A stretch of DNA of 64,000 bases. Source: Bryobacter aggregatus MPL3. GTDB taxonomy: Bacteria > Acidobacteriota > Terriglobia > Bryobacterales > Bryobacteraceae. Where the stretch lies: NCBI RefSeq assembly GCF_000702445.1, contig NZ_JNIF01000003.1, positions 744,001 through 808,000 on the forward strand. The letters are read 5' to 3'. Below, piece by piece: positions 46,293 through 57,865 of this stretch. The first letter of the stretch is position 1. Every line of letters begins with the position of its first letter. The position numbers were made by a program, and so were the translations under genes. Under the pieces are notes generated by a model that did not search any database, was not told the origin of the DNA, and was given only the letters and a program-made list of their open reading frames with translations.

Positions 46293-49200
46293 TTACTGCA
46301 AGGAAATCTGATGGGTCTCGAGCGTGGCTCCCAGCGCCTGTTCGAGACGGGCAATCGCCTTATTGAAATCGAGCCTTGCCACCAAGCCGCGGCGTTGCGA
46401 ATCGGCATATTCGTTCTGGCGCGTCAGCACTAAGAAGTTTGTGCTTTCACCTGTTTCAAACAGCCGCTGTTCGCTGTCCAGTTTCTCCTTGGCCGCGCTG
46501 GCGCTGGCTTCGGCTGCGACAATCCGCTGTTCCGCCGTTCGCAAGAACTGCAGCGAATTGCGAACCTCCGCCTCCACCTGCTGCTCGCTGCGCGTCCGTT
46601 GCAGAACCAGTGTGCGATCCGTCAGATTGGTCTGCACCAGATTCTCCTTGGCCGCACGATTGCGCAGGGTCCAGTCCACCTGAATCCCGGCTTGCCAACT
46701 TGTATAGTTGTTGCCAAACAGATTATTGAGCGTGGTGCCGTAGCCGCCGATGAAGCTGCCCGGCACACTACTTCCGATGGCTGCAGGCAGCGGCTCGAGT
46801 CCGGCAAGCTGCGAAAGCTTGTTGATTCTGTCCAACTGTGCGGCCCCGGACGAGGTGAACGGATTGGGTGCATTGTTCACCACACCGGCAAGACCCGTGC
46901 TGAGATACCCCCCCGTCAGATTCACCGCGGGCAGCAGTTGATTGCGGGCCAGATCCTTCTGGTACTCGTTCGACTCGAGACGCAGCCGCAGATTCTTCAG
47001 TTCCGGACGGCGCTGGATGGCGTCCCGCACAGCGGTCTTCAGATCATCCACCGCCGGAGGCGCGAGACTACGCGTTTCAATCGGGATGATCTCGTCATCC
47101 CAGATCGACTGATCGCGGCCACCAGCCAGCAGGCTCTTCAGATTGTTCTCGACCTCGGTGAGAAAGCCGATGCTGGCGTAATAAGTGTCCTGGCGGCGCT
47201 CCATTTCGGCAAGCGCAGCCGAGAGTTCCACTGGCGCAAGAGTGCCCGCGTCGATCTGGCGCTTGCTTCTCTCATACTGATCTTTGGCCAGGTCGACACT
47301 CTGCTTCTGGACATTGATGTCTTCCCGCGCCGCCACCAGATCCCAATAGGCCTGCGTCACCAGCGTCACCACATTGATCACGCGCAGTTCATAATCCACA
47401 TCGCTGATATCCACCTGCTTGCGGCGGACGCGAATCAGATTCCGGTCATTGTCAATCTTTCTGCCACGCAACAAGGGCTGCGTCAGGGTCAGCGAAAGGC
47501 TCGACTGCAGATAAGGATTCAAGCCCGTAAATGGGTTCGTTGTGTTGATCCGGCTATTGTTGAAGGCCGCATCAAAGCGAGTGCCATTCCAGGGGAGGCG
47601 CTGGGTGGCGCCGAAGTTATTCGTAAAGTTCCGATCGACCAGACGTCCATCGGCAGCTTGCAGCACACTCGATGTGGGCGTGACATTATAGTTGAACGCC
47701 GGTTTGTAGCCGAGCGTAAAATCCCAGACGCCGAAGGTCTGGCGATACTGGCTGCGGGCAATCACCGTGTTCGTCTTCTCGAGTTGGATCTCGAGATTGT
47801 TCTGCATGGCCATCTCGATGGCGTCCTTTAACATCAGCTTCTTCTGCCCGGCGCTCACACCCACGCGGGCCGGAGTTTCCGCAGCAAAACCAACCGATGC
47901 GAACAGCACTAAACTCAGCAGACTCGCAAAGACTTCCTTCGCCGCGCGACGCTTGAAGATTCGATTCAGGCGCGAGAACAGATGCCAGTTTGACATATCA
48001 TCGAACAGCGAATAGACCACCGGCGTCACCAGCAAGCTGAGCAGCAGACACATGGTCTGCCCCCCGATGACGACGATCGCGACCGTACGGCGAGTGCCGG
48101 CGCCCGCGCCGCCGCCAAAGGCAAGCGGCAACATACCGGCAACGAGCGCGGCAGTAGTCATCAGAATCGGGCGGAGACGGTCTTCGCAACCCTTCAGAAT
48201 CGCCTGGGCCCGAGGGAGCCCTTCCTCTCGCAGACGCTTGATATGGTCCACCTGTAGAATCGAATTCTTCTTCACGATTCCGAAGAGCACCAGGATTCCG
48301 ACTGAGGTGTAGATGATGTTGTAGTTCTCATTGGCCAGCTTCAAGCTCAAGAGCGCGAAGGGCACGCTGAGCGGCAGGCTGAGCAGGATCGTAATCGGGT
48401 CAAGGAAGCTTTCAAACTGCGCCGCCAGAATCATGTACATGAAGATGAAGCAGAGCAGGAAGGCGCCGATGAAGCTGACCCCCGCCTTGCCAAACTCCTT
48501 ACTGCGGCCCACCGTACCGGTGGCGTATTGCGGCGGCATGTTCAGATCGTTGACAATCTTCTGCGTCGCTGCCAGCGCGTCTGACAAGGACCCACCCTTG
48601 GCAATGTTCGCCTGGATCATGATCTGCCGCTGCCGGTTGTAGCGGTCAATGGCCGTGGGGCCGGTCGCGTCAATCAGACTGGCCACGTTCGACACTGGCA
48701 CATTGCCCAAGGTGGTCGAAGGGACAAACAGCCGGTTCAACGCTTGCGGCGAATTGCGGAAGTTCTTATCGACGCGCAGTTGGACGTCATAGCGATCGTC
48801 CCCCTCGCGATAGGTGGTCACCTGGGAGTCCCCGGCAACCAGCGTGCGCAAAGCCGTGGCGATGCTGTTGACGCTGACGTTGAGGTCGGCAGCCTTGTCG
48901 CGATTGATGTCGACGCGCAGTTCCGGCTTGCCAGGCTCATAGGACATATCGAGATCAGCCACACCGGGCACTTCGGCCAGCTTCGTCATGATGGCGCGGG
49001 AGTAACGCTCCAACTGAGCGAGGTCCGGGCCCTGGACGTAATACTGCAGATCGCGATCGCTCGCGCCGCCCGAAATCAGGGCCGGCAACTGCACGCCCAC
49101 AATCATGTCCTTCGAGAAGGGCTTCATCATCGCACGCGTCTTTTCCATCAATTGCTGCTGGCTGAACTCACGCTTCTCGGGCGGCACCAGTTGCACGATG

Positions 49201-51038
49201 ATGCTGCCGCGATCGACGCGCTTCTGGATATCGGCGCCAATCGTGGTGAGCAGATACTTCAAGCCCGGGAGCTTCTTCAGTTCGCCTTCGACGCTATTCA
49301 TTGCATTGGTGGTGCCCTCGAGCGAGGAACCCGGAGCCGTTCTCACCGTCACCTCAAAGTAGCTCTGGTCATCGACGGGCAGGAAGTCCTTACCCATGCT
49401 CATGAACAGCGGTCCGGTGGTGTAGATGACCACGGCGGAAATGACGATGATCACCCAGCGGTGCGACATGCTCCAGTCGAGCAAACCCATGTAAGGCCGG
49501 GAGACCACCTTGAAGAGCAACCCTTCCTTGGTGCTGTTGTGGCCGGTATTTGGCTTCGTTTTGAGGAATTTGGCCGACAAGGCCGGCGTCAGCGTGAAGC
49601 TCACCAGCAGGCTGACCATGATTGCAAAAGCAGCGGTAAAGCCGAAGCTCGACATGAAGCGGCCGACGATGCCCGTCATGAGCGCCACCGGCATGAAGAC
49701 CACCGCAAGACTCAGCGTCGTCGCCAGCACGGCGAGACCAATCTCGCGCGTTCCTTCAATGGCTGCCTCCACCGGGCCCATGCCCTTCTCTTCCTGGAAG
49801 CGGAAGATATTCTCCAGCACGACGATCGCGTCGTCGATGACGATCCCCACCATCAACACCAGCGCCAACATCGAGATCTGGTTCAGCGTAAAGCCCATCA
49901 CGTACATCAGGGTGTAAGTGGAGATGATCGAGGTGGGAATGGCGAGCGCCGCGATCAGTGTCGCGCGCCAACTGCGGATAAACAACAGCACGACGATCGC
50001 GGCAAAAAGTCCACCCTCCACAAGATGCGCCTGCACCGCTTCAAAGGCGCCCTTGATGAAGTCGCTCTGGTCGCGTGAGTAATTGATCTCGAGGTCCCGA
50101 GGAATGAGCCCCGATGTCTGTAAGCCGCCGATGCGCTCCTTAATCACGCTAATCACGTCGAGCGTGTTGGTTCCGGCTTGTTTGCGCACTTCGAGCACCA
50201 CCGCAGCCACGCCGTTGAGGCGGGCCAGCGAACGGGGCTCTTCGACACCATCGACAATCCGGCCCACATCGCGCACGCGAATCGGTGCACCATTCAGCGT
50301 GCCGATGATGATGTTGGCGAATTCTTCGGGACGCAGCAGGCGTCCGAGGGTTCGCAGACTCACTTCCCGAGCGCCCTGATCGACACGGCCCCCCGGAACT
50401 TCCACATTCTGCGCCGCCAACGCAGCACGAATCTGGTCGACGTTCAGGTTGTAGCTGTACAGCTTTTCGCCATCGAGGATCACCTGGATCTGGCGGGTGC
50501 GGTCACCGACAAAGCGGACTTCGCCGACGCCGTTCAAGCTTTCGATATTCTTCTTGATCAGGTCGTCCACCAGCTTGGTGGTCTCGCGGATCTCACGCGG
50601 CGAACTCACCACCACGCTGATCACGGGCGAGGCATCGGTCGCCACCTTCTGGATCACGGGTTGCTTGGCGTCCCGGGGCAATTGGTTCAGCACCTGATTG
50701 ACCTTGTCGCGCACTTCCTGGGCCGCCACTTCGCCATCTTTCTCGAGGGTGAACTGGATCGAAACCAGCGAGTTGCCTTCGCTCGAGGTCGAGCGCAGTT
50801 CATCGATGCCGGAGATGGTATTGACCGCCTCCTCAATGCGTTTGGTGACCTGGCTTTCCACTTCTTCGGGAGCCGCGCCCGGCAACTGGGTGGTCACCGT
50901 CACAAAGGGGAATTCCACCTTCGGGAAGAAGTCCACACCGAGCTTCATGTAGGAAGCAGCACCCAACACCACCAGGGCCAGAATCAGCATGGTGGCAAAG
51001 ACAGGGCGTTTGATACAAATTTCAGCGAGTTTCTGCAT
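46293..51038 (-). CDS. RND efflux pump (HAE1 type) fused to a TolC-like outer-membrane channel
   Basis: 1581 residues in one uninterrupted frame. Residues 1 to about 1015 are a complete RND permease of the AcrB/HAE1 type: start IKRPVFATMLILALVVLG, proton-relay aspartates in GIVIDDAIVVLENI, the TM10 Lys segment FGIVKKNSILQVDH, and the final TM12 near LLSLLVTPVVYSLFDD. After a basic stretch (NRIFKRRAAK) comes a hydrophobic segment FASLLSLVLFASVGFAA followed by ETPA (about 1035-1054). This looks exactly like a signal peptide. Residues about 1060-1581 are a TolC-type outer-membrane efflux protein (LKDAIEMAMQNNLEIQLEK, VTLVTQAYWDLVAAREDI, then RSEQQVEAEVRNSLQFLRT). An internal ATG at 47996 could start a separate TolC chain but has no clear Shine-Dalgarno sequence. 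It lies third in the TetR operon. Confidence 0.95.
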   Translation of the reverse strand: MQKLAEICIKRPVFATMLILALVVLGAASYMKLGVDFFPKVEFPFVTVTTQLPGAAPEEVESQVTKRIEEAVNTISGIDELRSTSSEGNSLVSIQFTLEKDGEVAAQEVRDKVNQVLNQLPRDAKQPVIQKVATDASPVISVVVSSPREIRETTKLVDDLIKKNIESLNGVGEVRFVGDRTRQIQVILDGEKLYSYNLNVDQIRAALAAQNVEVPGGRVDQGAREVSLRTLGRLLRPEEFANIIIGTLNGAPIRVRDVGRIVDGVEEPRSLARLNGVAAVVLEVRKQAGTNTLDVISVIKERIGGLQTSGLIPRDLEINYSRDQSDFIKGAFEAVQAHLVEGGLFAAIVVLLFIRSWRATLIAALAIPTSIISTYTLMYVMGFTLNQISMLALVLMVGIVIDDAIVVLENIFRFQEEKGMGPVEAAIEGTREIGLAVLATTLSLAVVFMPVALMTGIVGRFMSSFGFTAAFAIMVSLLVSFTLTPALSAKFLKTKPNTGHNSTKEGLLFKVVSRPYMGLLDWSMSHRWVIIVISAVVIYTTGPLFMSMGKDFLPVDDQSYFEVTVRTAPGSSLEGTTNAMNSVEGELKKLPGLKYLLTTIGADIQKRVDRGSIIVQLVPPEKREFSQQQLMEKTRAMMKPFSKDMIVGVQLPALISGGASDRDLQYYVQGPDLAQLERYSRAIMTKLAEVPGVADLDMSYEPGKPELRVDINRDKAADLNVSVNSIATALRTLVAGDSQVTTYREGDDRYDVQLRVDKNFRNSPQALNRLFVPSTTLGNVPVSNVASLIDATGPTAIDRYNRQRQIMIQANIAKGGSLSDALAATQKIVNDLNMPPQYATGTVGRSKEFGKAGVSFIGAFLLCFIFMYMILAAQFESFLDPITILLSLPLSVPFALLSLKLANENYNIIYTSVGILVLFGIVKKNSILQVDHIKRLREEGLPRAQAILKGCEDRLRPILMTTAALVAGMLPLAFGGGAGAGTRRTVAIVVIGGQTMCLLLSLLVTPVVYSLFDDMSNWHLFSRLNRIFKRRAAKEVFASLLSLVLFASVGFAAETPARVGVSAGQKKLMLKDAIEMAMQNNLEIQLEKTNTVIARSQYRQTFGVWDFTLGYKPAFNYNVTPTSSVLQAADGRLVDRNFTNNFGATQRLPWNGTRFDAAFNNSRINTTNPFTGLNPYLQSSLSLTLTQPLLRGRKIDNDRNLIRVRRKQVDISDVDYELRVINVVTLVTQAYWDLVAAREDINVQKQSVDLAKDQYERSKRQIDAGTLAPVELSAALAEMERRQDTYYASIGFLTEVENNLKSLLAGGRDQSIWDDEIIPIETRSLAPPAVDDLKTAVRDAIQRRPELKNLRLRLESNEYQKDLARNQLLPAVNLTGGYLSTGLAGVVNNAPNPFTSSGAAQLDRINKLSQLAGLEPLPAAIGSSVPGSFIGGYGTTLNNLFGNNYTSWQAGIQVDWTLRNRAAKENLVQTNLTDRTLVLQRTRSEQQVEAEVRNSLQFLRTAEQRIVAAEASASAAKEKLDSEQRLFETGESTNFLVLTRQNEYADSQRRGLVARLDFNKAIARLEQALGATLETHQISLQ

Positions 51039-51047
51039 GGCTGTTCC

Positions 51048-52232
51048 CTAGAGGGTCTTCACACTCACGCCGTTGACGAGGTTGAGCAGGTTGCTCACGG
51101 CGATCGAGTCCCCAGGCTGGATGGTGCCGGCAGGGGCTTCTGCCCAACCGTCGATCTCAGCAGCAGGAGGAATCTTCACTTCCACCGCCTTGCCGTTGCG
51201 CACCACGTACACCTTGCTCAGCCCGGCCACCGAGTAGATGGCTTGCTTGGGCACCATCACCACTTGCTCGGCGCGCTGGGTGACCAGCTTGACCTGCACA
51301 AAAGTGCCCGGACGCAGACGGGGGTCGCTGGCCGGAATCTTCGATTCCGCCAGCAGCGTCCGATTCTTGGAGTCAAAACTCGGGTTCAACTTTTGGATGC
51401 TGGCGTTGAACTCTTTGCCCGGCGCCGCATCGGTTGTAAAGGTCACCACGCTGCCAGGGCGAATGAGCGCCGAATAGGTCTCCGGAATCTCCACCCGCAA
51501 GCGCAGCGGACTCGTCTTCACCAGCGTGGCGACCGCCGTATTTTCCTTGATGTACTGGCCCGGACTCACCAGCTTTGCGCTGATGCCGCCGTCGAAGGGC
51601 GCGCGAATCACGTTGTCGGAGAGGCGCTTGGTGGCAATCTCCAGATCGGCCTTCTGCGCGCGGAGCTGGGCAATCATCATATTCAGCTCGTCATTAGTCG
51701 CGTCGATCATCGCCTGCCGTGCCTGCAGGGTCTTCTGCAACTCAACAGCCCGTTCCTTCGAGATGTCACCGCTTTGCACTAATTTAGCGGCCGAATCGTA
51801 TTTCGACTTCGCGTCCTCCAGATTCGCCTGCGCCTGGCGGATAGCCGCCGTCGAGGTGGGATAGGGATCATCCCATTTCTTCATGCCGAGACGGGCCGCC
51901 AACTGGCTGACATTGGCCTTGGCACGCTCAAGAGCCCATTCGGAATCCCGCGGATCCAGTTCGGCGATGATGTCGCCCTTTTTCACCAGTTGTCCAAAGT
52001 CGACCCGGAAGCGGGAGACGCGCCCGGCGATTTCAAAACTGAGGTTGACGGTTTCATCCGCGTCGAGCGACCCAGTCACATCGATGGACTTATCGAGAGT
52101 GCGAGCTACGGCCTGTTGCACGCGAACCTGAACTGGTTCTGGTGCCACAGGAGCTTTAGCCTTGGGATCTTCTTTCTTTGCGCACGCCGACAGGAGTAGT
52201 AGGGCAGGAACTACAAAGTAAAACAATTTCAT
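51048..52232 (-). CDS. RND efflux membrane fusion lipoprotein
   Basis: 394 residues. The lipobox ALLLLSAC places the lipidated Cys at about residue 17. The biotinyl-lipoyl-like half-motifs (LSFEIAGRVSRFRVDFGQLVKKGDIIAELD and VIRAPFDGGISAKLVSPGQYI) flank a coiled-coil hairpin at about 95-205. Beta-barrel and membrane-proximal domains follow. This periplasmic adaptor links the RND pump to the outer-membrane channel. The coil includes the DSEWALERAKANVSQL type helix. It overlaps the tetR-like gene by four bases (ATGA) and precedes the pump gene by 9 bp. Confidence 0.95.
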   Translation of the reverse strand: MKLFYFVVPALLLLSACAKKEDPKAKAPVAPEPVQVRVQQAVARTLDKSIDVTGSLDADETVNLSFEIAGRVSRFRVDFGQLVKKGDIIAELDPRDSEWALERAKANVSQLAARLGMKKWDDPYPTSTAAIRQAQANLEDAKSKYDSAAKLVQSGDISKERAVELQKTLQARQAMIDATNDELNMMIAQLRAQKADLEIATKRLSDNVIRAPFDGGISAKLVSPGQYIKENTAVATLVKTSPLRLRVEIPETYSALIRPGSVVTFTTDAAPGKEFNASIQKLNPSFDSKNRTLLAESKIPASDPRLRPGTFVQVKLVTQRAEQVVMVPKQAIYSVAGLSKVYVVRNGKAVEVKIPPAAEIDGWAEAPAGTIQPGDSIAVSNLLNLVNGVSVKTL

Positions 52233-52852
52233 GAATTTTTTTCAACGATTCCGTTTAAGAAAATTTGGACAGTCAAGTTCACCATCTCTTCCCGTTCGAT
52301 CGTGGAGCAGAGCGGCGACTTGAAGAGAATTGTGTTTTGGCAATACTGGCCGATCATGCCGCAGAAGGCGAGAGCCGCCCCCAGAGGCTGGACCCCGGTG
52401 AAGGCTCCCTCCTCAATGCGGCGCTGGATGTAGCCAGTAATGATGTCGAGGAAAGGCTTATGCTGCTTCTCGTTCAGTTCGTCCATGCTCTCGTGCCCTT
52501 CCAACGCCGAGAACAGCTTCAGGCGAATCAACTCCGGCTTCGTTTCGTGCCAGACAATCATTTCGCGCGCCAGATGAGTGAAGAACTCGCGATCGTCACT
52601 GCCGCTTGCTACACGTGCCAGCCCAGAGAGCGCATCCACATAACCCTGATCTTTCGAAGCTTCGAGAATCGCCGTATACAGATCTTTCTTACTTGGAAAG
52701 TGTTGATAAAGAACGGGTTCACTCACGCCGACACTGGCCGCTAGCTCCCGGGTGGTGACCCCGCGGAAGCCACGTCCGGAAAAAAGCCGGATGGCTGCAT
52801 CCAGAATCGCGCAACGACGCTGTTGACTGCTGAGACGAGGAAGCAAAGACAT
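52229..52852 (-). CDS. TetR/AcrR-family transcriptional regulator
   Basis: 207 residues. The N-terminal helix-turn-helix is classical: RRCAILDAAIRLFSGRGF, TTRELAASVGVSEPVLYQHF and PSKKDLYTAILEAS. The C-terminal ligand-binding helices are less conserved, with Cys residues near GQYCQNTILF. It is the first gene of the efflux operon (ATGA overlap with the fusion protein gene). A near-perfect palindrome lies directly in front of its start codon, so autoregulated repression of the pump is likely; the inducer is unknown. Confidence 0.95.
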   Translation of the reverse strand: MSLLPRLSSQQRRCAILDAAIRLFSGRGFRGVTTRELAASVGVSEPVLYQHFPSKKDLYTAILEASKDQGYVDALSGLARVASGSDDREFFTHLAREMIVWHETKPELIRLKLFSALEGHESMDELNEKQHKPFLDIITGYIQRRIEEGAFTGVQPLGAALAFCGMIGQYCQNTILFKSPLCSTIEREEMVNLTVQIFLNGIVEKNS

Positions 52853-52899: not shown

Positions 52900-53154
52900 C
52901 TAGAACGCGCTCAGTCGCCGCTCAAACTTGCAGTCCCGGTTGGGGCAGACAGCCCAAAGCACCTTCCGCACCGGTTTCTCGAGCAAGTAGGCGCTGGAGC
53001 AATGGGGGCAGGGCTCATTCCGAGGTTGAAACTTTGAGGTAAAGCCGCATCGAGGGAATCGATTGCAACCGTAGAAAGGCTTCCCGTCGACGGACTTTCG
53101 AGGAATGATCAACCCATCCGTACAGTTTGGGCAAAGGGGGCTGAAATCGGGCAT
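52900..53154 (-). CDS. Stand-alone topoisomerase-type zinc-finger protein
   Basis: 84 residues composed almost wholly of two four-cysteine zinc ribbons: CPNC with GCNRFPRC, then CPHC with CPNRDC. The first has the KPFYGCNRFPRCGFT consensus of the DNA-binding C4 fingers at the C-terminus of bacterial topoisomerase I. The neighbouring divergent topA gene lacks such fingers. This protein may therefore supply them in trans or be a separate DNA-binding factor (inference). The two starts are 97 bp apart. Confidence 0.88.
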   Translation of the reverse strand: MPDFSPLCPNCTDGLIIPRKSVDGKPFYGCNRFPRCGFTSKFQPRNEPCPHCSSAYLLEKPVRKVLWAVCPNRDCKFERRLSAF

Positions 53155-53251
53155 GGTTCAATTCCGTTGTACACTCTTCGGTAGTCGGACGGGTGCGGAG
53201 ATTTCAGGGTGGCCCGTGCGGCAGAATCCATCAGAACGGTCAAATTCAGTA

Positions 53252-55939
53252 ATGGCAGCGAAGTCACTGGTCATCGTCGAGTCCCCGACGAAAGCGAAAA
53301 CAATCACGAAATTCCTCGGGAAGGACTTCATCGTGCGCGCGTCGATGGGACACGTACGGGACCTGCCGGAGAACGCCTCAGAGGTTCCGGCCAAGTTGAA
53401 GAAGGAATCCTGGGCGCGATTGGGTGTCAATGTCGATCAGAACTTCGAACCAGTTTATGTAGTCCCCAAGAACAAGAAGGATCAGGTCAAGGAGTTGCAA
53501 GACCTCCTGAAGACTTCCGACCTCTTATACCTCGCAACTGACGAAGACCGCGAAGGGGAGTCGATCAGTTGGCATCTGCGCGAAGTGCTGAAGCCCAAGA
53601 TCCCGACGCGGCGTCTGGTCTTTCACGAAATTACGAAGGACGCGATCCAGAATTCGCTGGAGCATGCTCGCGATATCGATGAGGATCTGGTGCGGGCTCA
53701 GGAAACACGCCGCATCATCGACCGGCTCTTCGGATACGAAGTCAGCCCGCTGCTTTGGAAGAAGATGGCTCCTGGTTTGAGCGCCGGCCGCGTGCAGAGC
53801 GTTGCCGTCCGCTTATTGGTGGAGCGGGAACGGGCACGCATCCGCTTCCGGAGTGCGGCCTATTGGGGCGTCAAGGCGAAGCTGCAAAAGCCGGGGGCCG
53901 AACCCTCTTTTGAAGCGGAATTGCTGCAGATCGCAGGTAAGCGGGTTGCCACCAGCAAGGATTTCAATCCGGACACCGGCAAACTGGACGACCCGAATGC
54001 ATTGGTGTTGCTCGACCAGGCGGGTGCCGAACGAGTGGTCAAGCTTCTCGAGGCTGGGCCGGTTTCAGTCAAGAGTGTCGAACAAAAGCCCTTCATCCAG
54101 CGGCCGGCCGCTCCGTTTGTCACCAGTAGTTTGCAGATGGAGTCGAACTCGAAGCTCCGCTTCTCGGCCAAGCGCACCATGCAGGTCGCCCAGCAGTTGT
54201 ACGAAAACGGCTACATCACCTATATGCGTACCGACTCGACCTCCTTGTCGGAAGAAGCCGTTCGTGCCGCGCGTTCGCTGATCACCGCCGAATACGGCAA
54301 GGAATATCTGTCGCCGTCCGTCCGTACCTACGAGACCAAGGTAAAGAACGCCCAGGAAGCACACGAAGCCATTCGCCCAGCTGGTGACAAGTTCACCTCT
54401 CCTGAGGTAGTGCAGGCCTCGCTCGGGCAGGAAGCCTTCCGGCTCTACGACCTCATCTACAAGCGCACCGTGGCCTGCCAGATGGCCGATGCGCGCGGCA
54501 CCAATACGACGGTGCTGGTGGAAGCAGGCGATGCGACCTTGCGCGCCAGCGGCAAAGTAATTGAATTTGCTGGATTTCTCAAGGCCTATGCCGAGGAATC
54601 CGATGACGAGAACCAGAGCGATCAGGTTCGTGTTCTGCCCCAGATGGCGCAAGGTGACGGGCTGAAGACGTTGAAAGCCGATTCCCTCGAGCGCTCCACG
54701 CAGCCGCCAAATCGCTTTACCGAAGGTTCGCTCATCAAGGAATTGGAAAAGCTTGGCATCGGACGCCCCAGCACCTGGGCCTCCATCGTCGAACTGGTGC
54801 TCAACCGCAGCTACGCCTTCAAAAAAGGGACTGCGCTCGTGCCAACCTTTACGGCAATGGGTGTGGTGGGCCTGCTGGAACAGCATTTCGCAAATTTCAT
54901 CGATTACAAGTACACCGCGAATCTCGAAGACGATCTCGACGCGATTTCGCGCGGCGAAGAGCAAAGCACGGTTTATTTGAAGGCCTTCTACTTTGGGGAC
55001 GCACTGCCGGGATTGAAAGACCTGGTGCAGCACGGCGAAAAAGAAATCGACCCCCGCATCATCAACGGCCTGCCGCTGGGAGAGTGGGAAGGGAAAAAGG
55101 TCGAAGTCCGCATTGGCCGCTACGGCCCCTTCATCAGCGACGGCGAACGCCGCGCGAGTGTACAGGATGAGATGCCGCCCGACGAGTTGACGCTCGACAA
55201 GGCGCTGGAAATGCTGGAAACGGCAAGCAAAGAGCCGGAGAGCCTCGGCTTGCATCCCGATCTCGGAATGCCCATCTTCCTCAAGGTGGGCCGCTACGGT
55301 CCTTATGTCCAGATGGGCGATGGCCGCGACGGAGCCAAGCCGAAAATGGCCTCTCTGGTGCAAGGAACGGACCTGAAGGATGTCGATCTGGTCCACGCCT
55401 GTAAGCTGCTTGCTTTGCCCAAAACCCTGGGCACACACCCCGAAACCAATGAACCAGTGATTGCAGCCAACGGCCGCTTTGGCCCCTACGTACAAAGTGG
55501 GAGCGAAACGCGGAGTTTGCCCGCCAACCTGTCTCCCATCGATGTCACGTTAGAGGAAGCGATGGAACTCATCCGCCAGCCGAAGGCACGCGGACGTGGC
55601 GGCATGACCCGGCAACAGACCTCGCTCAAGGATTTTGGCATCAACCCACTGAATTCGAAGGGCGTCAAGTTGCTGAGCGGACGCTACGGCGCCTACATCA
55701 CCGATGGTGAGGTGAACGCAACCGTACCTCGCGGCAGCGATCCGATGACGATGACTCCAGAGCAGGCCTTTGAGCTCCTGGCTGCGCGTGCGCAGCAGAT
55801 TCTCGATCAAGGAGGGCCCGAAGCTGCAAAGAAAGCGACCAAGGCTCGACGCGCGACGAAGAAGGCAGCGACAAAGACGGCCAAGAAGACAGGCAAGACC
55901 CCGGTAGCAGTGCCCGAAGAAGTCGAAATCGAATTCTAG
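53252..55939 (+). CDS. topA: DNA topoisomerase I
   Basis: 895 residues from ATG 53252 (MAAKSLVIVESPTKAKTI); the longer frame adds a non-conserved leader overlapping the divergent gene. The Toprim domain has LVIVESPTKAKTI and the acidic triad region ATDEDREGE. The core includes GLSAGRVQSVAVRLLVERE and the active-site Tyr in NGYITYMRTDSTSLS (about residue 320). Instead of C4 zinc fingers, the C-terminal part carries four short repeats of the RYGPYV type (IGRYGPFISDG, VGRYGPYVQMGDG, NGRFGPYVQSG, SGRYGAYITDG). A Lys/Ala-rich tail follows. It relaxes negative supercoils. It ends in a CTAG shared with dprA. Confidence 0.96.
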   Translation: MAAKSLVIVESPTKAKTITKFLGKDFIVRASMGHVRDLPENASEVPAKLKKESWARLGVNVDQNFEPVYVVPKNKKDQVKELQDLLKTSDLLYLATDEDREGESISWHLREVLKPKIPTRRLVFHEITKDAIQNSLEHARDIDEDLVRAQETRRIIDRLFGYEVSPLLWKKMAPGLSAGRVQSVAVRLLVERERARIRFRSAAYWGVKAKLQKPGAEPSFEAELLQIAGKRVATSKDFNPDTGKLDDPNALVLLDQAGAERVVKLLEAGPVSVKSVEQKPFIQRPAAPFVTSSLQMESNSKLRFSAKRTMQVAQQLYENGYITYMRTDSTSLSEEAVRAARSLITAEYGKEYLSPSVRTYETKVKNAQEAHEAIRPAGDKFTSPEVVQASLGQEAFRLYDLIYKRTVACQMADARGTNTTVLVEAGDATLRASGKVIEFAGFLKAYAEESDDENQSDQVRVLPQMAQGDGLKTLKADSLERSTQPPNRFTEGSLIKELEKLGIGRPSTWASIVELVLNRSYAFKKGTALVPTFTAMGVVGLLEQHFANFIDYKYTANLEDDLDAISRGEEQSTVYLKAFYFGDALPGLKDLVQHGEKEIDPRIINGLPLGEWEGKKVEVRIGRYGPFISDGERRASVQDEMPPDELTLDKALEMLETASKEPESLGLHPDLGMPIFLKVGRYGPYVQMGDGRDGAKPKMASLVQGTDLKDVDLVHACKLLALPKTLGTHPETNEPVIAANGRFGPYVQSGSETRSLPANLSPIDVTLEEAMELIRQPKARGRGGMTRQQTSLKDFGINPLNSKGVKLLSGRYGAYITDGEVNATVPRGSDPMTMTPEQAFELLAARAQQILDQGGPEAAKKATKARRATKKAATKTAKKTGKTPVAVPEEVEIEF

Positions 55940-57090
55940 TGCCAGACGCGGGTATAGGTTTTACCCGCTAGTTGCCGGATCTGGCCGTCCAGTTCCAGTT
56001 CAAACAGGATGGAGATCAGGTCAGAAAAGTTCGCCATCCCGTTTGAACCGAGCTGGTTCGCCAACTCGTCGATTGAGATGGGGTTGTCATAGGGAATGGC
56101 AACAATCACCTGGGCCCGGAGCGATTGCAGCGGGTGGGTTGTCTCTTCATCGAGCAATCGCTGCGGGCCGCGCAATTGCAAGTTCCGGCGCGCCTCGAGC
56201 GGAAGATCGCACAGCACGTCGCTGGGCTCCTGCACCAAGCGAGCGCCTTGCCGGATCAACAAATTAGGCCCCCAGCTTTGCTTCGAAGTGATGTTGCCGG
56301 GGATTGCAAAGACTTCCCTGCCCTGATCGAGCGCGACCCGCGCGGTAATGGCCGAACCAGAGTACTGCGCCCCCTCCACAATCAACACGCCATAGCTAAG
56401 CCCACTGACGATCCGATTCCGGACCGGAAAGTTCTGCGGATAACCAGGAGTGCGCAGCGGATATTCACTCAGCACGAGCCCCTCACGCTGGATCTGAGCA
56501 GCCAGCTTCTTGTTTTCTGCAGGATAGGTGACATCCACTCCACATCCCAGCACCGCAATGGTGTTGCCCTGGACGGCGAGTGCTGCGGTGTGCGCCGCCG
56601 TATCGATGCCGCGCGCCAAGCCACTCACGATGGTAAGACCTGCCTTCGCCAGTTCGCGGCCAAAGCGGTCAGCAACGTTGGTGCCATAAGGGGAGGGCCT
56701 GCGGGTGCCCACCACGGCCACACAGGGTTCGGCCAGCAGTTCCAGCCTGCCACGAGTAAAGAGCAGAAGGGGCGGGTCGTAGATCTGGCGGAGGAGTGAA
56801 GGGTAGCGATCGTCATAGTAGGTGAGAATCTCCGTCCCTGTCGCGCGCATCAGCCGCTGTTGTTCGAGGGCCTCTTCAATGGCTGAACCCGCCTCGATGG
56901 AACGGGCTACGCTCGCGGAAAGACCCGCGCCCTCCAGCTCACGGGCCTCCATCTGAAAAATCGCCCCTGGCGAACCAAATCTTTCGACAAGATCGACAGA
57001 ACGGCGTGTGCCGAGTTGGGGCGTCATCCGTAACGCCAACCAAAGAAGTTCTTCTTGCTCGTTCCTCACGCTACTGGTGCCGGCGGTCAT
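55936..57090 (-). CDS. dprA: DNA-processing protein DprA
   Basis: 384 residues. An N-terminal helical/SAM-like domain is followed by the Rossmann-like core: VAVVGTRRPSPYG, IVSGLARGIDTAAHTAAL, GCGVDVTYPAENKKL, SEYPLRTPGYPQNFPVRNR and GSAITARVALDQGREVFAIPGNI. A C-terminal winged-helix domain (about 310-380) ends the protein. DprA loads RecA on incoming single-stranded DNA in natural transformation. In many bacteria dprA and topA are co-directional neighbours; here they are convergent and share CTAG as overlapping stops. Confidence 0.96.
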   Translation of the reverse strand: MTAGTSSVRNEQEELLWLALRMTPQLGTRRSVDLVERFGSPGAIFQMEARELEGAGLSASVARSIEAGSAIEEALEQQRLMRATGTEILTYYDDRYPSLLRQIYDPPLLLFTRGRLELLAEPCVAVVGTRRPSPYGTNVADRFGRELAKAGLTIVSGLARGIDTAAHTAALAVQGNTIAVLGCGVDVTYPAENKKLAAQIQREGLVLSEYPLRTPGYPQNFPVRNRIVSGLSYGVLIVEGAQYSGSAITARVALDQGREVFAIPGNITSKQSWGPNLLIRQGARLVQEPSDVLCDLPLEARRNLQLRGPQRLLDEETTHPLQSLRAQVIVAIPYDNPISIDELANQLGSNGMANFSDLISILFELELDGQIRQLAGKTYTRVWH

Positions 57091-57118
57091 CTTCTGGAGT
57101 AGTTGCGGTCTGCCGCAA

Positions 57119-57589
57119 ATGTTCTCAGTGAAAATCGCCTATGAGATATTTGAGAAGATGGCCACGCAAGCTACACACGAAGACGCGAATCTGATTCTAC
57201 GCCTGTACGAAATCCGCCGCGAAGAACGGATGCGGACCGCACGGGACTGGTATGCCCGCAGTTTTCGTCCGAAAACAATGCAAGAATTTGGCAGCATTGC
57301 CCCTCCAGGATCGTCCGAAAACACCTATATGCGGCAGGTGACAAGCTACTACGAAATGGTGGCGAGCTTTCTGACCGCAGGCCTGCTGAACAAGCAGCTC
57401 TTTTTTCAGTCTGGGGCCGAACTGTTGCTTTGCTACCTCCGCTTGCGTCCGATTCTGCCGCAATTGCGCGAATCCTTTGTCAATCCTCAGGCCTTTGCCA
57501 ATCTGGAAATCATGGGCGAGGAATATCTGGCCTGGTACGACCAGAAGCAGGCCGGATCGAAAGACGCCATTCTGGCGCGGATGTCCTAG
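57119..57589 (+). CDS. Conserved-looking helical protein of unknown function
   Basis: About 156 residues if started at ATG 57119, or 143 from ATG 57158; the longer frame to 57008 would overlap dprA and is not preferred. The protein is helical with motifs LILRLYEIRREERMRTARDW, SYYEMVASFLTAGLLNKQL and MGEEYLAWYDQKQAG. No signal peptide or membrane segment is evident and no family is recognised. It is divergent from dprA (28 bp) and followed 15 bp later by another small gene, probably in one transcript. Confidence 0.75.
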   Translation: MFSVKIAYEIFEKMATQATHEDANLILRLYEIRREERMRTARDWYARSFRPKTMQEFGSIAPPGSSENTYMRQVTSYYEMVASFLTAGLLNKQLFFQSGAELLLCYLRLRPILPQLRESFVNPQAFANLEIMGEEYLAWYDQKQAGSKDAILARMS

Positions 57590-57604
57590 GAGTTCCGAAC
57601 ACCA

Positions 57605-57865
57605 GTGAAGCAAGACCCGGAGTTTTTTGGCGAGGCGGAACTTGACCTCGTCTATATCGCGAAGAAACTGCGCGAAGCCCTCCCGCTCGAAGAAGCCTTT
57701 ACGGCACAAGGAATCGATTACGCGATTGAGCTCGACACCTATACCGGCGGCTTGATCTTTCGCACAGAACGGACCGGAGTTTTCTTCTACGTCCTGCCGG
57801 AAAAGACAGAGGCCGCGAAAGAAATCATTCGCGGCCTCCGGCTCAAACCTTACGAGATCGTTTAG
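57605..57865 (+). CDS. Small conserved-looking protein of unknown function
   Basis: 86 residues starting at GTG 57605, with AGGAG about 12 bases upstream. A mixed alpha/beta pattern is seen: a helical start (FFGEAELDLVYIAKKLREA), then alternating beta segments (IDYAIELDTYTGGLIFR, TGVFFYVLPEK) and a final helix (AAKEIIRGLRLKPYEIV). This resembles small regulatory alpha/beta-sandwich folds, but nothing more can be claimed. Its stop TAG directly abuts the stop of the convergent NHL protein (TAGCTA at 57863-57868). Confidence 0.75.
   Translation: MKQDPEFFGEAELDLVYIAKKLREALPLEEAFTAQGIDYAIELDTYTGGLIFRTERTGVFFYVLPEKTEAAKEIIRGLRLKPYEIV

Follow-up and report, generated by a model that had tools for sequence, protein, structure and literature searches.

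A free-standing pair of TopA-type zinc ribbons beside a finger-less topoisomerase I in Bryobacter aggregatus MPL3 and its probable origin from a displaced native enzyme

Bryobacter aggregatus MPL3 carries, within the 64,000-nucleotide stretch analyzed here (contig NZ_JNIF01000003.1, positions 744,001 to 808,000; hereafter the window), a gene for DNA topoisomerase I (topA) and, divergently encoded, a small gene, designated zf, for a free-standing protein with two C4 zinc ribbons. The genome (G000; genus label g1) is 5.75 Mb in size. The comparison presented below suggests that zf is probably the retained last two ribbons of a native TopA that was displaced by a foreign, finger-less TopA, and that it may serve as a free helper at single-stranded DNA (ssDNA) or at the junction of RNA polymerase (RNAP) and DNA.

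The resident TopA (895 residues) contains Toprim, Topoisom_bac, and four Toprim_C_rpt stretches according to Pfam, with the repeat signatures GRYGPF, GRYGPY, GRFGPY, and GRYGAY at residues 622, 680, 741, and 810, respectively, a YMRTDS motif from residue 324, and a Lys-rich tail from residue 860. Topoisomerase zinc fingers (PF01396) were not found by Pfam in TopA at E ≤ 0.1, and no CxxC occurs in its open frame. The conserved start is at 53252 (MAAKSLVIVES...); the open reading frame (ORF) listed from 53105 overlaps zf. The best PDB matches were the DNA topoisomerase 1 chains 6pcm and 5d5h, presumably mycobacterial enzymes, and the architecture is that of the mycobacterial Toprim_C_rpt type, without essential difference. 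The zf protein has cysteines at residues 8, 11, 30, and 36 (finger 1) and 49, 52, 70, and 75 (finger 2). Finger 1 exceeded the PF01396 cut-off (40.2 versus 32 bits) and identifies zf as a ribbon protein of this family, and finger 2 (C-x4-C) was recognized solely by alignment with the last finger of the TopAs of relatives. PF01396 was the only family above its cut-off in the Pfam scan of zf, with neither the Toprim nor the Topoisom_bac catalytic domain of a TopA. Six PF01396 matches were obtained in the whole window genome at E ≤ 10, of which zf alone passed the cut-off, and PF01131 was matched once. The first-pass annotation, which was based on the letters of the window, was therefore correct in describing a TopA with four repeats and a Lys-rich tail in place of fingers, and a separate gene for two C4 fingers on the other strand, 97 bp away, which is the distance between the two start codons.

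All eight genus genomes examined contained a single zf match, and the genus alignment was gapless from the first cysteine (77 codons), with all eight cysteines and a C-terminal end of the form (R/K)R(L/V)SxF conserved in 8/8 genomes. A chance ORF was ruled out by this gapless match and the retained cysteines. The intergenic region holds an 11-base block, AGTGTACAACG (zf strand, 53165-53175), that was unchanged in 8/8 genus genomes; its core, TGTACA, is palindromic, so that the block may serve either as an operator or as a promoter. In G150 and G152, topA is cut by contig ends, and the divergent topA start is visible in loci L236 and L235.

Table 1. Features of the zf-topA region, in window coordinates.
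Feature	Position	Strand	Basis or remark
zf, free-standing 84-residue protein with two C4 zinc ribbons	52900..53154	-	ORF, Pfam, homology, selection
zf-topA intergenic region, 97 bp, divergent between start codons	53155..53251	.	holds the 11-base block
topA, finger-less; Toprim, catalytic core, and four Toprim_C_rpt repeats; putative replacement enzyme	53252..55939	+	Pfam, tree
Repeat region with four motifs of the form G(R/K)(Y/F)G(P/A)(Y/F), which begin at 55115, 55289, 55472, and 55679	55115..55696	+	motif positions; Pfam PF13368
Lys-rich C-terminal tail of TopA	55829..55939	+	translation
dprA, anchor of the presumed ancestral dprA-topA locus; on the strand of zf, opposite to present topA	55936..57090	-	
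DUF4760 gene (c12) and small gene (c3), beyond dprA; synteny anchors	57008..57865	+	
TetR-family regulator gene, downstream of zf and followed by efflux genes	52229..52852	-	

Most members of the family to which B. aggregatus belongs possess a native, finger-bearing TopA, usually beside dprA. PF01396 was matched at E ≤ 0.01 in 57 of 61 sampled family genomes, mostly several times per genome, and zf found a match at E ≤ 1e-4 in 133 of 150. In all 17 finger-type loci that were mapped whole, this match fell at the C-terminus encoded by the topA frame, and 16 of them had dprA next to topA. The native TopA of locus L110 contains five PF01396 stretches, and zf aligns with the last two. Compared with ten native TopAs of the same family, zf shared 43-56% identity over 71-75 residues, and all ten ranked above the TopAs of other families, as they did for two of the g70 proteins described below. 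Six of the 12 free-standing finger proteins were tabulated, and each had its best match in the last two fingers of a same-family TopA, which also took the top rank for the proteins of G104, G146, and G111. Both the best match of zf and its location at a dprA-topA locus are those of the C-terminal tail of a native family TopA.

The catalytic enzyme has a different ancestry. TopAs of the window type were detected at E ≤ 1e-140 in 20 of 237 family genomes (7/76 genera); G152, with its truncated topA, is therefore outside the 20. In a tree of these 20 sequences, 18 out-of-family TopAs, and five finger-type TopAs, the 20 formed one clade (SH-like approximate likelihood ratio test, SH-aLRT, 100) among the TopAs of other acidobacterial classes. 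Three clade relatives from such classes that were inspected lacked CxxC. Within a phylum sample of 396 genomes, 57 out-of-family genomes with a near full-length TopA match (45-53% identity) were searched for fingers, excluding the partial matches of G467, G390, and G472, and none had PF01396 at the place of TopA. As judged from these sequences, the window TopA did not lose fingers; it belongs to a finger-less lineage of other acidobacterial classes. The proposal of the first-pass annotation that the fingers had been detached from the resident TopA could not be upheld, since this TopA falls in the C_rpt clade and the fingers match the native finger-bearing TopA of the family. Furthermore, the branching of the 20 finger-less TopAs conflicted with RpoB. 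G042 grouped with finger-type members of its own genus by RpoB (100/100) and with G005 by TopA; G005 grouped with G082, G011, and G100 by RpoB (100/100), and the TopA tree placed G082 beside the window genus. Because the TopA order disagrees with RpoB, whose tree left deep forks without resolution, the data point to entry of the foreign topA by horizontal transfer and to its further spread. A native finger TopA and a foreign TopA in one genome were not seen among the genomes searched.

The finger piece was present in the eight genus genomes, in G111 (g71), and in all three g70 genomes, and its arrangement differed. Along dprA, the order in g70 (3/3) and g71 (G111) was dprA(+) topA(+) finger ORF(+), and that in the five genus loci holding dprA was dprA(+) topA(-) zf(+), i.e., with the topA between them inverted. 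Beyond dprA, c2 and c3 are common to the finger-type locus of G100, and c3 and c12 to that of G032; many other finger-type loci have dprA alone in common. Since some finger-type loci have these neighbors in common with it, the zf locus appears to be the old dprA-topA locus. The g70 ORF that follows topA is longer (324-330 residues) and consists of an eroded Toprim followed by three fingers. Its N-terminal part was not recognized as Toprim by Pfam; profile comparison recognized it, matching residues 3-151 of finger-TopA with a probability of 93.4% (E 2.4e-7). The acids of the DxDxE motif (DPDRE) are replaced, and a catalytic core domain was not found in this ORF. On the basis of this structure, the g70 ORF is interpreted as a visible half-way state in the loss of native topA.

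Among the 13 genomes with finger-less TopA outside the genus, four (g70 and g71) carried remnants only, and nine lacked any finger match (E ≤ 0.05). G071, the other genome of g71, had neither a zf match nor a finger-less TopA at E ≤ 1e-140, and a single PF01131 match (E 2e-104). The independent tail retentions may number anywhere from one to three, as the trees group g71 differently: the zf tree joins it with g70 (97/81; long branches flagged), RpoB weakly with the window genus (81/74), and TopA with g8 (SH-aLRT 97). Several fragments were rejected as stand-alone finger genes: the frame in G085 runs off the contig start, the G057 match starts at base 3 of its contig and the G080 match at base 2, and the frame in G038 reaches a contig end. 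G095 was not counted, as it has two overlapping frames of native TopA at a contig end.

Selection was estimated as omega, the ratio of pairwise nonsynonymous (dN) and synonymous (dS) divergence, for pairs with unsaturated dS. Omega of zf was 0.08-0.26 in the 13 of 28 genus pairs that qualified, the other 15 being saturated. The corresponding values were about 0.04-0.10 for genus topA (ten pairs), about 0.09-0.14 for tetR (5/6 pairs with finite dS), and 0.20 for dprA (1/3 pairs). In g70, the fingers had 0.13-0.27, the Toprim remnant 0.29-0.42, and topA 0.02-0.03. The homology of zf to the last two fingers, its position at the dprA locus, the mutual exclusion with a native TopA, and the purifying selection are all direct readings of the aligned sequences. 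The free proteins also differ from the fused fingers in composition. Counted from the first to the last cysteine, the 35 fused copies average a net charge of +2.4 (range 0 to +7), whereas the genus proteins carry +6 to +8, that of g71 +7, and those of g70 +4 to +7. At the position three residues ahead of the third cysteine, finger 2 has Trp in 9/9 two-finger stand-alones, compared with Trp in 4, Phe in 11, and Val or Met in 20 of the 35 fused copies; at the same site of finger 1, all nine two-finger copies have Phe. In zf of the window, these residues are Trp67 and Phe27. A DNA-stacking aromatic residue is reported just before the third cysteine, in strand beta3 (PMC9369019, PMC10969213). The Trp of zf likely occupies this stacking position, its exact register against the published aromatic being our own reading.

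The AlphaFold2 model of zf (83 residues, without Met1) shows two beta zinc ribbons, with a predicted local distance difference test score (pLDDT) of 86.4 and a predicted template-modeling score (pTM) of 0.65. By Foldseek, the model weakly resembled chain I (which we take to be Rpb9) in entries of RNA polymerase II, at an E value of 0.005 at best, and E. coli TopoI, both by itself and within RNAP-TopoI entries (E 0.14-0.45). Stacking is reported as the main way in which the ribbons of E. coli TopA bind ssDNA, and the C-terminal domains of this enzyme are reported to interact with RNAP (PMC4678816). The purifying selection, the more positive charge, and the Trp at the likely DNA-stacking position suggest that zf is a working ssDNA-binding protein, and its activity is most likely ssDNA binding near transcription. 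On the other hand, zf does not appear to be an obligatory part of the enzyme, because nine family genomes with finger-less TopA, six of them <90% complete, have no finger gene (PF01396 at E ≤ 0.05); the supply of finger function in trans that the first-pass annotation suggested is thus not supported as something the enzyme needs, and zf would rather be a helper than a missing subunit of the new TopA.

Known relatives of zf are fused or free-standing. Like the Topo_C_ZnRpt (PF01396) fingers of TopA, finger 1 of zf passes the family cut-off, and both fingers align with the last two of a same-family TopA; in contrast to those fingers, zf is a gene of its own without a Toprim or catalytic domain, is more positively charged on average, and has a fixed Trp in finger 2. 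The TopA of Acidobacterium capsulatum is described with five ZnRpt and no C_Rpt (PMC9369019). The nearest known stand-alone relative is YrdD of E. coli and other Enterobacteriaceae, which is likewise a free-standing protein of TopA-type zinc ribbons. Zn-dependent ssDNA binding is reported for YrdD, which seemingly has four ribbons (PMC4678816), and yrdD is reported to be activated by hypernegative supercoiling (PMC8301835). In contrast to YrdD, with four ribbons and a gene away from topA, zf has two ribbons in 84 residues, lies 97 bp from topA, and is apparently the remnant of a displaced TopA; it is not a member of the YrdD group.

From 114 relatives, 80 public genome loci were kept for comparison. 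Seven of them had a two-finger stand-alone gene beside a finger-less TopA, namely six of the window genus and L240 (the G111 locus); nine contained four-CxxC frames of 180-236 residues for which the flank fetched, of up to 4 kb, showed no topoisomerase core, and most of the others were fused TopAs. L251, L273, L281, L302, and L308 were unclassified, and the frame chosen for L277 had no Cys. Four-CxxC frames of Pasteurellaceae bacterium Pebbles2 (192 residues) and Lonepinella (205 residues) matched zf at 44 and 42%, and by their layout appear YrdD-like, in our own reading. The first-pass annotation had counted a small finger gene that is common far from topA, or present in genomes whose TopA has its own fingers, as evidence against its view. 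With regard to the former, the four-finger frames above occur in other bacteria; the latter kind was seen among the 150 family genomes as one fragment, in G019, which is a near-copy of the end of the genome's own topA. This 167-residue ORF (L315:1848-2351) ends in a near-copy of the last ~50 residues of the finger-bearing TopA (L315:3276-5696), from which it is separated by a ParE-like gene (below cut-off) and an antitoxin-like gene, and looks like a recent duplication of the topA 3' end. Literature searches returned nothing on a detached TopA tail, on topoisomerase gene fission with a zinc ribbon, on a Bryobacter topoisomerase, or on the RNAP-TopoI structures.

The following course of events is therefore proposed as the probable one. 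A finger-less Toprim_C_rpt TopA of foreign origin would have replaced the native finger-bearing TopA, and the native topA 3' end would have stayed at the dprA locus as a gene of its own. The free zf protein, expressed from a promoter region shared with topA, would bind ssDNA or the RNAP-DNA junction behind transcription, as TopA ribbons do, and act as a non-essential helper in supercoil or R-loop control. Several observations weigh against this proposal. PF01396 was absent at E ≤ 0.05 in g8 (5 genomes), g12 (2), g43 (G042), and g6 (G005), so that no finger gene was seen in four of the seven genera that have the finger-less TopA; completeness is <90% in six of the nine assemblies. The family-level origin of the fingers is clear from the top ranks only, as one or two TopAs of f2, another family of the same class, outranked two or three of the ten same-family TopAs for the proteins of G104, G146, and G111. 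The zf tree (77 columns, long branches) does not nest the stand-alones among the fused copies; its fused set excluded duplicates of genus sequences, L107-L109 gave no finger pair, and the tree is too short to root, so it neither supports nor contradicts a native-tail origin. In addition, zf changes faster than topA, all seven pairs that include the zf of the window itself are saturated in dS, the finger-2 site is Arg, with no aromatic, in all three g70 ORFs, and the eight genus sequences represent one lineage, so the shifts in charge and Trp rest on two or three lineages. None of the Foldseek matches reaches E ≤ 0.001, and the named ones have a root-mean-square deviation (rmsd) of 12-18 over the ribbon pair, so that the resemblance is weak; a profile made from the two-finger alignment found nothing in PDB.

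Two other origins were considered. Fission of the present TopA, with the fingers acting in trans, fits the adjacency of zf and topA in 8/8 genus genomes and the lack of fingers in the resident enzyme, and what remains of the earlier view is that topoisomerase fingers lie apart from the catalytic core in a gene that stays beside topA. However, C_rpt repeats and a basic tail are present in the clade with or without a finger gene, and also in the three other-class relatives; the fingers match another TopA lineage, so that fingers and core do not share the one ancestral lineage of a fission product, and nine family genomes combine a finger-less TopA with no finger match. Fission is thus very unlikely. 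Arrival of the finger gene together with the foreign topA would explain their neighborhood in three genera, but it is equally improbable: PF01396 was matched at E ≤ 0.05 in only 8 of the 57 out-of-family genomes, where the five above the cut-off sit in frames of at least 545 residues and the weak matches in short frames of G492 and G523 contain one CxxC each, the best matches are native same-family TopAs, and gene orientation varies between genera.

With regard to function, several lineages may have separately kept the zinc-ribbon tail for a job of its own, such as docking to ssDNA or RNAP that limits R-loops, and gained charge and a stacking Trp, with others being left without the tail; this is possible, at a modest likelihood. 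A somewhat more doubtful role is that of an RNAP adaptor that continues the docking once done by the tail of the old TopA and either recruits or complements its replacement at the transcribing polymerase. It agrees with the reported interaction of E. coli TopA C-terminal domains with RNAP (PMC4678816), the weak structural similarity to RNA polymerase II chain I and to the TopoI chains in RNAP-TopoI entries, and the conserved divergent region, but four genera with the same TopA type show no finger gene, and the fold likeness may be to zinc ribbons generally. Transcriptional regulation of topA, or of zf itself, at the 97-bp divergent region is suggested by the divergent pair and the block unchanged in 8/8 genomes; it is unlikely, as the block could be no more than a promoter, this type of ribbon is reported to bind ssDNA (PMC4678816), and the finger gene is downstream of topA, not divergent, in g70 and g71. 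That zf is a decaying pseudogene tail without function is the least plausible: the faster change of the g70 Toprim part than of its fingers and the four genera without any fingers speak for it, but zf is an intact, gapless ORF with all cysteines in 8/8 genomes despite saturated dS in 15/28 pairs, and its conserved C-terminal end and upstream block are likewise found in 8/8.

The remaining genes around the locus were also compared. In the window, dprA is convergent with topA. Related genera have the c12 and c3 genes at the corresponding position in several of the loci mapped, and among the mapped loci the TetR-family gene adjoins zf in genus loci only. Farther downstream, a frame of 1581 residues (46293-51038, minus strand) joins an AcrB-type efflux pump (residues 5-1012) to an OEP outer membrane efflux protein (to residue 1570); efflux frames of 1559-1582 residues occur in four of five mapped genus loci, and G146 has two shorter frames there. 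Elsewhere in the family, a frame of G027 (L107:6068-10045) combines a type IA topoisomerase with a RecQ-like helicase (Toprim, Topoisom_bac, DEAD, Helicase_C, RecQ_Zn_bind, and HRDC in the one example scanned). Frames of similar length occur in many family genomes, a few with about 25% identity to the window TopA, and no second PF01131 match was found in the window genome. One combined literature search found nothing on a topoisomerase III-RecQ fusion protein in Acidobacteria. In G012 (L093; 96% complete), the sole PF01131 match lies in a frame of 1345 residues and no PF01396 was found at E ≤ 0.01, and its ordinary TopA is either missing or in an assembly gap.

If the proposed displacement is correct, a central enzyme that is replaced by a foreign one can leave behind a tail that persists without the catalytic part, and the g70 loci represent an intermediate of this process. 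The relative advantage of the two TopA tail types is described as "not fully understood" (PMC9369019). A single family holds a native finger TopA, a finger-less TopA with a free finger protein, and a finger-less TopA alone, and these three states provide a natural test of the roles of TopA ribbons apart from relaxation.

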